64,000 nucleotides of DNA, from NCBI RefSeq assembly GCF_000807675.2, contig NZ_CP019962.1, positions 2,976,001-3,040,000 on the forward strand, written 5' to 3'. Below, one piece after another: positions 24,269 to 26,823 of the stretch (within the stretch, counting starts at the first letter, position 1; each line of letters opens with the position of its first letter). The position numbers were made by a program, and so were the translations under genes. Source of the DNA: Eubacterium limosum. Its GTDB lineage: Bacteria; Bacillota; Clostridia; Eubacteriales; Eubacteriaceae. The notes beneath the pieces are model-generated. The model ran no database searches and had not been told where the DNA came from. It saw only the letters and a program-made list of their open reading frames with translations.

Positions 24269-24322
24269 AAAAAAACCACACAATCTTCTCAGAAATTTAA
24301 AATACTAAGAAAATTAGTGCGG
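24269..24322 (-). terminator. Leader terminator before the glycerol-3-phosphate dehydrogenase operon
   Basis: Read on the minus strand, CCGCAC (24322-24317), a bulged base and AATTTTCTTAG (24315-24305) pair with CTGAGAAGATT (24292-24282) and GTGTGG (24281-24276), giving 17 pairs with some G-U, then seven T (24275-24269). It lies between glpP and the dehydrogenase gene, about 60 bases before its start. A terminator placed just before a glycerol-3-phosphate gene, with glpP adjacent, is the layout expected for GlpP antitermination. Confidence 0.85.
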
Positions 24323-24334
24323 CTCTCCATTGCC
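24316..24334 (-). promoter_or_regulatory. Candidate GlpP-responsive antiterminator motif, copy 1
   Basis: On the minus strand the RNA reads GGCA-AU-GGAGAGCCGCACU immediately upstream of, and overlapping, the terminator stem. The core GGAGRGCCRCACU recurs in the glpK leader with 11 of 13 bases identical. GGC and GCC within the motif could pair and compete with the base of the terminator. Recognition by GlpP is inference. Confidence 0.5.
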
Positions 24335-24347
24335 ATTGATTTAGTTT

Positions 24348-24980
24348 TTATTCTCCATCAGGTTTAAGGGGTTCATCTTCTCTATTATTTTGCTCACTTT
24401 TTATGCTTGAAAAGGCGTCCCATAACGGCTTATATGAGGTACTGGCAGAGATCGCACCAGCGTCGATACAAGAACGAACCTCTTCTTCTGTCTCGATAAA
24501 CCCGCCAGTGATGATTGGAACCGTCAGTTCCTTTTTTACACTGTGGATAATCTTGGGAACGAGTCCGGGCAAAATCTCAACGGCGTCAGGCCGGATTTTT
24601 TTTGCCGAGTTGATGGAAACGTCCATGGCGGACGAGTCCAATAAAAATAAACGCTGTATGGTCATCAGACCTTCCTGCTTGGCACGGGCAACGAGAGAAT
24701 TCTTCGTCGAGATAATGCCAGTAGGATTGATCTCTTCCTTCAGATATTTGATAAAGTAATTATCTTGGGCGTATCCTTTGATAAGATCCAGATGGACAAA
24801 GGCATACTTACCAGCGTGGTTCACATACTCAACCATTTTTTTGAGATTGTAGATGTTACCACCCAGTAAAAAGATAATCTGTGTGTCCGACGCGATGGCG
24901 TCGTGAATATCCTTGGGATTTCTGACAGCGGCGATGATCGGATTCGCTTGAAACATAAGAAAACATTTTCTTGTCGACAT
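24348..24980 (-). CDS. glpP: Glycerol-3-phosphate responsive antiterminator GlpP
   Basis: This RNA-binding regulator prevents termination in leaders of glycerol genes when glycerol-3-phosphate is present. The 210-residue TIM-barrel protein carries NPIIAAVRNPKDIHDAI at the N-terminus, HLDLIKGYAQDN (about 70-81), IISTKNSLVARAKQEGL, DAVEILPGLVPKII and the end motif PIITGGFIETEEEVRSCIDAGAISASTS, all typical of GlpP. The ATG at 24980 has AGGAGGA upstream, and a good promoter lies at 25011-25039. Two candidate target leaders are in this window, before glpK and before the dehydrogenase. Confidence 0.95.
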   Translation of the reverse strand: MSTRKCFLMFQANPIIAAVRNPKDIHDAIASDTQIIFLLGGNIYNLKKMVEYVNHAGKYAFVHLDLIKGYAQDNYFIKYLKEEINPTGIISTKNSLVARAKQEGLMTIQRLFLLDSSAMDVSINSAKKIRPDAVEILPGLVPKIIHSVKKELTVPIITGGFIETEEEVRSCIDAGAISASTSYKPLWDAFSSIKSEQNNREDEPLKPDGE

Positions 24981-25010
24981 TAGGTCCTCCTTAGACTCAT
25001 CTATGCCTGT

Positions 25011-25039
25011 ATTCTAGCATAAAGGCATTCGGAGGTAAA
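25011..25039 (-). promoter_or_regulatory. glpP promoter
   Basis: On the minus strand TTTACC (25039-25034) and TAGAAT (25016-25011) are 17 bases apart, about 30 bases before the glpP start. Confidence 0.65.
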
Positions 25040-25072
25040 TAGTTTTTTTAGACTTTTTGTACTTTTGTTAAA

Positions 25073-25111
25073 GTTTTTGCCGGGAAAGTCCGAAAACTCC
25101 CCGACAAAAAC
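25073..25111 (-). terminator. Hairpin after glpK
   Basis: On the minus strand GTTTTTGTCGGG pairs with CCCGGCAAAAAC (12 pairs, one G-U), followed by a short run TTTAAC. The U-tract is weak, so this may be a partial terminator or an mRNA-stabilising hairpin between glpK and glpP. Confidence 0.6.
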
Positions 25112-25142
25112 CGTTCATTTTTACTTTTGATAACAAAGAGGC

Positions 25143-26639
25143 TTATTCAGCTTCTTCCCAACCCTTTGCACATTCTACAGCTTTTACCCAGCCTTTGTAC
25201 AGTTTAGCGCGAACTTCGGAATCCATCATTGGTTCGAAGGTTCTGTCGATTTTCCATGCGTCGGTAACTTCTTCTTTACCATGCCAGAAATCTACAGCTA
25301 AACCAGCTAAGTAGGAAGCACCCATAGCGGTAGTTTCAACGATAGACGGTCTGTCTACTGGAACACCAAGGATGTCAGCCTGGAACTGCATTAAGAAATC
25401 ATTGTTGCATGCGCCGCCGTCAACTTTGAGAGATTTCAGGGATACGCCGGAGTCTTTTTCCATAGCGTCCAGAATATCTTTTGTCTGGTATGCTAATGAT
25501 TCAAGAGTTGCACGGATTAAATGGCATTTATTTGCGCCACGTGTTAAACCAACAATTGCGCCACGAGCGTAAGCATCCCAATGGGGAGCGCCCAGGCCAG
25601 TGAAAGCAGGTACCATGTATACGCCGTTTGTATCTGGAACTTTCTTAGCGAAATGTTCAGAGTCTGGGGAAGTATCGATGATCTTTAATTCGTCTCTCAG
25701 CCACTGGATAGCAGCACCAGCTACGAAAATAGAACCTTCAAGAGCATAGTCAACCTGTCCGTCAAGGCCCCATGCGATGGTTGTTAACAAGCCGTTTGTA
25801 GATTTAACGAATTTTTCCCCTGTGTTCATCAACAGGAAGCAGCCTGTGCCATAGGTGTTTTTAGCCATACCAGGTTCGAAGCAAGCCTGTCCAAAGAGGG
25901 CTGCCTGCTGGTCACCAGCGATACCGGCAATTGGAATTTCGCCACCGAATAAAGTAGTGCTTCCGAAAACACCGGAGGAAGGTTTAACTTCTGGTAATAA
26001 GGACATTGGGCATTTGAATTCAGAACATAATTTTTCATCCCATTTAAGTGATTTGATATTGAAAAGCATGGTTCTGGAAGCGTTAGAGTAATCTGTTGCG
26101 TGAACTCTGCCTTCAGTTAATTTCCAGAGCAGCCATGTGTCAATGGTACCAAATGCTAATTCGCCTTTTTCAGCTCTTTCGCGAACGCCTTCAACATGGT
26201 CTAAGATCCATAATAATTTAGTAGAAGAGAAGTATGGATCAAGAATAAGACCGGTATTGTCCTGAACATAGTCAGCGAAGCCAGGAATGGCGTTAAAGTC
26301 ATCAGCATAGCTGGCGGTACGGCGGCACTGCCAAACAATTGCATTATATACAGGTTCGCCTGTTTTTCTATCCCAAACAACGGTGGTTTCACGCTGGTTT
26401 GTAATACCGATTGCAGCGATATCATCAGCGGTTGCGCCAACTTTTGCCATTGCTTCACTTACAACACCACTCTGAGTAGCCCAAATTTCCATTGGATCAT
26501 GTTCAACCCAACCTGGTTTTGGATAAATCTGAGTAAATTCTTTCTGTGCAACGCTTACAATTTCGCTTTCATGATTGAATAAAATCGCTCTTGAACTTGT
26601 GGTTCCGGCATCCAGTGCTAATACATACTTTTTAGACAT
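25143..26639 (-). CDS. glpK: Glycerol kinase
   Basis: The enzyme phosphorylates glycerol to glycerol-3-phosphate. The 498-residue FGGY-family protein has [14 protein letters not shown] at the N-terminus, [25 protein letters not shown] (about 165-176), the phosphate-binding [14 protein letters not shown] and the family signature region [21 protein letters not shown]. Length is normal. The ATG follows TTAGGGGGT. No glycerol facilitator gene (glpF) is adjacent, which is unusual since glpF commonly precedes glpK in Firmicutes. The long leader upstream contains a terminator and the candidate GlpP motif. Confidence 0.97.
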
Positions 26640-26744
26640 AAGTATAACCCCCTAAAATAAATTAAAATATATTTATTTAATTATGCTTCTGAAATACTAT
26701 CAGCATAAATAAACCAAATGTTAATAAATGGTACAGTTTTCATT

Positions 26745-26806
26745 AAAAAAAGGCACAGACTAACAACATTAACATATTCTTTTTATGCAATGCGAAAGTG
26801 TGGCCC
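26745..26806 (-). terminator. Leader terminator upstream of glpK
   Basis: On the minus strand GGGCcACA (ending near 26799) pairs with TGTGCC(T) (26757-26751) with one bulged base, and an inner imperfect stem CATTGCATA/TATGTTAATG extends it; seven T follow at 26751-26745. The stem is less perfect than the one before the dehydrogenase operon. Confidence 0.6.
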
Positions 26807-26823
26807 TCCTAGACTCCTGCCCA
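26797..26823 (-). promoter_or_regulatory. Candidate GlpP-responsive antiterminator motif, copy 2
   Basis: The leader RNA reads GGGCA, ten bases, then GGAGGGCCACACU, overlapping the left arm of the glpK leader terminator. It matches the motif before the dehydrogenase operon at 11 of 13 bases and in its position relative to the terminator. Confidence 0.5.

Follow-up and report, generated by a model that had tools for sequence, protein, structure and literature searches.

In Bacillus subtilis, the protein GlpP together with glycerol-3-phosphate (G3P) acts on terminators in the leaders of glpD, glpFK and glpT, according to the available part of PMC9604022; antitermination by GlpP in this organism is also covered in the available part of PMC7430163. 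GlpP has long been recognised as an antiterminator of B. subtilis, and the RNA which it reads is without a family in Rfam. A structural definition of this RNA site was not found in the available parts of PMC9604022, PMC3997798 and PMC7430163; primary papers (PubMed 9493382, 8825777, 33455022) may map the site. Here we describe two leaders of Eubacterium limosum (contig NZ_CP019962.1, positions 2,976,001 to 3,040,000; this whole stretch of 64,000 nucleotides is called the window), which precede glpK and a G3P dehydrogenase operon (the glpK and glpD leaders in the following) and which we consider, with a probability of roughly 0.85, to be protein-dependent antiterminators of the GlpP type.

The locus resembles the antitermination of glpD, glpFK and glpTQ in B. 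subtilis in its PF04309 regulator, in the leader terminators before glycerol genes and in the position of the regulator gene beside its targets; a difference lies in the glpD leader of the window, where GAG occurs once instead of twice. The PF04309 gene adjoins the leaders (220.7 bits), an intrinsic terminator is apparent from sequence and predicted folds in the leaders of the glycerol genes, and the targets are a glycerol kinase and G3P dehydrogenase-like genes. The features concerned are the following:

25143..26639, minus strand: glpK, glycerol kinase (TIGR01311, 748 bits, cut-off 590)
24348..24980, minus strand: glpP, PF04309 antiterminator protein, the proposed binder (220.7 bits, cut-off 27)
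22719..24206, minus strand: FAD-dependent glycerol-3-phosphate dehydrogenase/oxidase-like gene, first behind the second leader (DAO and Fer2_BFD domains)
26802..26821, minus strand: candidate antiterminator hairpin of glpK (GGC, loop AGGAGUCUAGGAGG, GCC; two GGAG eight bases apart)
26745..26809, minus strand: conditional intrinsic terminator of glpK (predicted fold; 5' arm contains GCCACAC; seven T at 26751-26745)
24321..24334, minus strand: candidate antiterminator hairpin of the G3P dehydrogenase operon, glpD side (GGC, loop AAUGGAGA, GCC; one GGAG only)
24269..24328, minus strand: conditional intrinsic terminator of the G3P dehydrogenase operon (sequence and predicted fold; seven T at 24275-24269)

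The Leaders of glpK and of the G3P Dehydrogenase Operon

The original prediction had proposed that a minus-strand motif, GGCA...GGAGRGCCRCAC (also GGCA...GGAGRGCCRCACT), is common to both leaders, that its CCRCAC is the left arm of a terminator ending in seven T, and that glpP lies between the leaders. All three statements were borne out: the 13-base cores, GGAGAGCCGCACT and GGAGGGCCACACT, are identical at 11 of 13 positions, the GCCRCAC end of the motif is the terminator 5' arm in both leaders, and glpP (24980-24348) is situated between them. On the glpD side, GGC (24334-24332), the loop AATGGAGA and GCC (24323-24321) are followed by GCAC and a T at 24316, and the right arm of the terminator, GTGTGG (24281-24276), runs into the seven T. 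On the glpK side, GGC (26821-26819), the loop AGGAGTCTAGGAGG and GCC (26804-26802) are followed by ACAC and a T at 26797, and the right arm ends with GTGCC before the seven T (26751-26745). In both leaders the terminator 5' arm begins with the 3' arm of the short stem. The loop of the glpK leader contains a double GGAG, which the original prediction did not mention, GGAGUCUAGGAG (GGAG-UCUA-GGAG), with exactly the period of eight bases of the general element described below.

The glpD leader folds with -30.6 kcal/mol (z -5.73), a stability equalled by none of 200 shuffled sequences, and its nascent RNA, still lacking the right arm, is predicted to fold into the GGC/GCC hairpin (-4.2 kcal/mol). 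The whole glpK leader is not unusually stable (z -1.29; 21 of 200 shuffles as stable). A shuffle test with unbound register, applied to single leaders, gave p 0.049 for the glpD leader and nothing for the glpK leader, the terminator of which was not called by the script.

The motif alone was rejected as a genome-wide signal, being mostly chance and not significant: GGCAN{1,16}GGAGRGCC occurs 18 times in the 4.42-Mb genome, and a backward control pattern 13 times. A terminator behind the motif was seen by eye (in the printed 110 bases) at only two of these 18 sites, which are the two leaders of the window. What sets them apart is the fusion of the motif to a terminator, not the motif itself.

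Conservation within Eubacteriaceae

Conservation in related glp leaders, which had been named as a check, was found. Nineteen related GlpP loci were compared, namely the window and 18 from a contig scan with GlpP (Eubacterium, Acetobacterium, Pseudoramibacter and relatives). The glpD form, which consists of GGCAAYGGAGAGCC plus a terminator with small variations, was represented by a model (R1) built from 14 sequences including that of the window; R1 matched in all 19 loci, of which 14 had been used for building it and the other five are close relatives of those. In the window the match extends over 24271-24341 with 75.9 bits, this sequence being itself among the 14 builders. In the family, 32 of 40 genomes matched at E below 1e-7, some of them containing loci from which R1 was built. 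The glpK form (GGCAGGAG...GGAGRGCC plus terminator) was recognised by pattern in 15 of the 19 loci; it was not seen by pattern in L002, L014, L016 and L018, and the contig of L014 begins just upstream of glpP. R1 was discarded for wider use as too narrow, most of its weaker matches being the opposite strand of the same hairpin.

The terminator stem of the glpD form is paired in 126 of 126 cells of the 14 sequences, with changes on both sides at two of nine pairs. GGC, GGAGA and GCC are invariant in these sequences; the GGC/GCC stem never varies within Eubacteriaceae and gives no covariation signal there. Since stem and GGAG are both invariant, conservation of sequence and of structure are indistinguishable at this range.

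A Hairpin with GAG Repeats around PF04309 Genes

Stretches surrounding PF04309 genes, 120 in all, were taken down the match list of 299 genomes sampled evenly from the phylum, and 458 terminators were listed in them (415 non-redundant). A general element emerges: a hairpin whose stem varies and has about 3-8 base pairs (bp), whose loop has two GAG eight bases apart, and whose 3' arm doubles as the 5' arm of a terminator; examples are AGGACUU-GGAGAUUAGGAGA-AAGUCCU and CUGACA-GGAGAAUUGGAG-UGUCAG. GAG at a period of eight was present in 60 of the 415 non-redundant terminators and at every other period from 4 to 15 in 4-22 each, a count made in the same data in which the motif was first noticed. 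The tetramers repeating most often at this period were GAGA (49) and GGAG (34), followed by AGAA (13). The control consisted of 20 stretches of 20 kb (400 kb), taken at a distance from GlpP in 20 of these genomes; among its 151 non-redundant terminators, GAG at period eight was absent (other periods 0-2; Fisher p 2e-9 against 60 of 415). The whole criterion (two GAG 3-6 bases apart, flanks that pair over 4 bp or more, and a terminator overlapping the hairpin) gave 93 matches, 90 of them distinct, in 1.03 Mb of GlpP stretches (66 of 120 stretches), compared with one in 0.40 Mb of the same-genome control and none in 0.25 Mb of E. coli. One of the stretches (L118 1659-1757) also contains a tetrahydrofolate riboswitch.

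The leaders of the window are assigned to this element, as divergent members, by their architecture, the spacing of the repeats in the glpK leader, their gene context and a bridging form in L115, where GGCU-GAGAUUAGGAG-AGCC-GCAC with a terminator stands before a gene starting MYDV.

Covariation of the GGC/GCC stem, named as a check in the original prediction, was absent in the close relatives; it is present in the stem of the wider element. For a swap test, sites were picked by GAG repeats and terminator, not by the stem. At 53 non-redundant sites the own flanks paired with a mean of 4.23 bp (35 of 53 with at least 4 bp), and swapped flanks with a mean of 2.87 bp (29% with at least 4 bp; permutation p 0.0005). 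For 30 of the 53 sites, which have a 12-base double repeat, gapless 27-mers (A4, A6) were used, since the mixed-leader alignments with MAFFT (A1, A3) misplaced the arms; 63.3% of the cells were paired, compared with 47.6% in shuffles and at most 54.0% in slides. Among 15 sequences that had been chosen because their stem has 4 bp or more, changes on both sides occurred at all seven pairs, a number inflated by this choice. An earlier shuffle test over all registers was weak: p <= 0.05 was reached by 31 of 95 terminators with GAG and by 34 of 357 without.

Further GlpP Genes of the Same Genome

The genome from which the window was taken has five PF04309 genes (contig C1, L019-L023), standing beside kinase, amidohydrolase or GDSL hydrolase genes. 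Three of the remaining GlpP genes are preceded by a leader with a terminator; the leader of the fourth is located between the gene and a sugar kinase gene (L042) and is without a double GAG. Taken singly, the hairpins of the four paralog leaders were not significant (p 0.09-0.91 in the unbound test, in which other registers were chosen for some). Comparison with orthologs backs three of the four. The GlpP5/GlpP4-type gene of genus g2 is preceded by a leader with GGGC-AAGAGUUUAAGAGAU-GUCC; the arms are GGGC/GCCC in G013 (L318) and GGAC/GUCC elsewhere in the genus. At the GlpP3 ortholog of G027 (L328) the sequence is GGCU-AGAGAUACCGAGA-AGCC, and in the own copy the arms are GGUUU/AAACC. In L043 (4821-11734), a GlpP paralog stands behind a regulator-like gene and before URO-D-family, FGGY kinase, B12-binding and glycerol-kinase-like genes, an unusual mixture which may indicate corrinoid methyl transfer linked to a polyol. 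In the viral contigs searched, no GlpP relative was found.

A rival explanation is that both leaders are plain attenuating terminators, which share a motif through copying of one operon leader, and that no regulator reads it. The lack of compensatory GGC/GCC changes within Eubacteriaceae and the frequency of the motif alone in the genome would fit such copying, but the same architecture recurs with unrelated stem sequences near GlpP across the phylum and hardly elsewhere in the same genomes, and it is also present at orthologs of the other GlpP genes of this genome. We consider this explanation very improbable.

Occurrence with GlpP and Glycerol Genes

A second model (R2) was built from 15 sequences. 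At E <= 0.002 it matched in 34 of 398 genomes; PF04309 was present in 29 of these 34 and in 119 of the other 364 (Fisher p 2e-9). When the 15 training genomes were left out, the values were 17 of 22 versus 116 of 361 (p 3.4e-5), and in the genomes outside the first sample (99, a deduced number) 9 of 12 versus 23 of 87 (p 0.0016). At least 28 of the 40 strict matches were not more than 6 kb from a GlpP gene; among the other 12, those in L234, L237 and L238 precede starts of glpK-like or FAD-dehydrogenase-like genes.

Downstream genes were assessed for the non-redundant elements whose stem reaches 4 bp or more (35 elements). Behind five of them, no gene began within 450 bases, and one gene was common to two elements, which left 29 genes. 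Of these, 21 belong to glycerol or G3P families: 13 encode DAO-type FAD enzymes, six glycerol-facilitator-type channels and two glycerol kinases. Nine of the 29 match the model for type 2 G3P oxidase, and seven the GlpA model. The others include three RuBisCO-like genes (L180, L183, L206) and one for glyceraldehyde-3-phosphate dehydrogenase (GAPDH). Because leaders with GAG repeats, adjoining GlpP-type genes, stand before the RuBisCO-like genes, some PF04309 proteins may sense phosphates other than G3P.

Escherichia coli and Other Named Loci

Twelve named loci were scanned by the whole criterion, which gave matches in L107, L258, L260, L264 and L266 (one of the two in L260 may be due to chance) and nothing in the other seven (L259, L261, L262, L263, L265, L267, L268). 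In the ygcW-yqcE region of E. coli K-12 MG1655 (L107 12275-12592), two divergent elements each overlap a strong terminator; the stems have 6-7 bp (AUUACU-AGAGACCUGAGAAA-AGUAAU before yqcE, AGUUACC-AGAGAUAAUGAGAAA-GGUAACU before ygcW). They are situated about 6 kb from ygcP, an uncharacterised PF04309 relative, 36% identical to GlpP of the window. At least 80% of this region was matched in 4998 of 5426 E. coli genomes. The unbound shuffle test gave p 0.49 and 0.18 for the two leaders, with other registers being chosen for some leaders. In Streptomyces clavuligerus, AGUUACU-AGAGACCAGAGAAC-AGUAACU stands between a GlpP gene and a short-chain dehydrogenase/reductase gene. The glpP-aquaporin-glpK-glpD locus of Cytobacillus spongiae (L258) has two hairpins with GAG repeats: one, found by the criterion, is at the terminator that precedes the G3P dehydrogenase gene, and the other, recognised by eye, is before the aquaporin gene.

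CsrA recognises GGA in hairpin loops. The GGAG of the loops resembles such sites, and binding by another RNA-binding protein of this kind, instead of GlpP, was considered; but GGA is missing from many members, among them L223 and both E. coli elements, in which AGAG or UGAG is present, and the strict matches follow the distribution of PF04309, most of them being close to a PF04309 gene. This explanation appears very improbable. A riboswitch which senses a glycerol metabolite directly, without a protein, is hardly credible: competing hairpins before a terminator are a riboswitch-like anatomy, but the conserved core of the general element comprises only about 20-27 bases, the stem is variable, Rfam (release 15) yielded no match even at E <= 1 in window 24200-26950, and a dedicated antiterminator gene adjoins the leader. 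On the element in 15 member loci, Rfam likewise gave none at gathering score, and the matches in the E. coli region were far below it.

Proposed Mechanism

In the absence of the inducer, the leader RNA would fold as an intrinsic terminator, and transcription would end ahead of glpK or of the G3P dehydrogenase operon. With G3P available, GlpP would bind to the short hairpin formed just before the terminator; it would read the GAG repeats of the loop, two of them eight bases apart in the standard form and one in the glpD form of Eubacteriaceae. Since the terminator 5' arm begins with the 3' arm of the hairpin, a held hairpin should prevent the terminator, so that RNA polymerase reads through. 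The hairpin would be made before the terminator can close; being by itself weaker than the terminator, it should depend on a binder. By comparison with B. subtilis, and from the gene neighbourhood, we infer that GlpP is the binder and G3P the signal, with read-through in E. limosum.

Several results weigh against antitermination by GlpP at the two leaders. Both stems have just 3 bp, and the two-GAG feature is restricted to the glpK leader, the glpD leader having a single GGAG. Pairing of GGC with GCC in competition with the terminator, as originally predicted, agrees with the nascent glpD fold and with the covariation in the wider family; in the glpK leader, the minimum-energy fold uses another hairpin (UGGGC/GUCUA). 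The terminator-finding script did not call the glpK terminator. R2, applied to the window with filters off (20 kb), listed the glpK leader with 7.4 bits and E 6.3 at rank 11 of 13, and the glpD leader was not listed; in a default R2 search of ten sources, the best of four matches was one glpK leader (L005, E 0.86). No element by the whole criterion was found in 54 of the 120 GlpP stretches. The predicted co-occurrence with glpP holds for the strict matches and is weak at the loose cut-off: among the first 299 genomes at E <= 0.3, PF04309 was present in 53 of 116 matching genomes (p 0.03); these loose matches were mostly noise and were rejected as evidence. Of the 34 genomes with strict matches, five lack PF04309; their matches appear chance-like in L248, L275 and L278, that in L235 is followed by terminator-like sequence, and the fifth is in L272.

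Neighbouring Features of the Window

The G3P dehydrogenase operon continues with two genes, and a promoter-like site stands before the glpK leader:

21441..22715, minus strand: NAD(P)/FAD oxidoreductase-like gene, G3P dehydrogenase operon
21085..21444, minus strand: DUF1667 gene, G3P dehydrogenase operon
26911..26939, minus strand: sigma-70-like promoter of glpK, TTTACA-17-TATAAT with extended TG (11 of 12 consensus matches)

This promoter-like site was the best of 24 sites scored in window 20000-30000. The product of 22719..24206 scored 314 bits with NF033460, under the cut-off of that model (460). Divergent from glpK, on the plus strand, are dihydroxyacetone kinase genes (27193-29381; Dak1, Dak2 and EIIA-man domains), and an S-adenosylmethionine riboswitch (RF00162, 72.4 bits) is located at 58608-58703, also on the plus strand.

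Comparison with Known Systems

We are inclined, with some reserve, to regard the element as a bacterial RNA class absent from Rfam, which would be the common target of PF04309 proteins (two GAG eight bases apart, a free stem mirroring the terminator), distributed over Bacillota, Pseudomonadota and Actinomycetota and controlling RuBisCO-like, GAPDH and glycerol genes, with several GlpP paralogs of Eubacterium each acting through its own leader. In the available parts of the open literature, a description of the RNA element or of control by YgcP was not found; for B. subtilis, the primary papers may contain a map of the site. The element would allow the prediction of GlpP regulons from sequence, and it offers a testable contact code of GAG repeats, fixed spacing and a swappable stem. 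Solved structures of relatives (3KTS, 1VKF) are available. Uncharacterised operons, including ygcW and yqcE-ygcE of E. coli K-12, are predicted to be under antitermination through YgcP.

The hairpins read by BglG, LicT and SacY (RAT) share with the proposed system the principle of a protein-stabilised hairpin which competes with a terminator, according to the available part of PMC7430163. The proteins are unrelated to PF04309, LicT being of the CAT-PRD type (same source, in part), and the RNA is different, since the element described here has a variable stem and a loop with GAG repeats. TRAP and HutP are similar in that they read short repeats, G/UAG or NAG, in leader RNA (PMC7430163, available part); TRAP, however, reads an unstructured leader in which there are eleven repeats, and HutP reads two clusters with three repeats each, whereas the leaders described here present one or two repeats in one hairpin loop.

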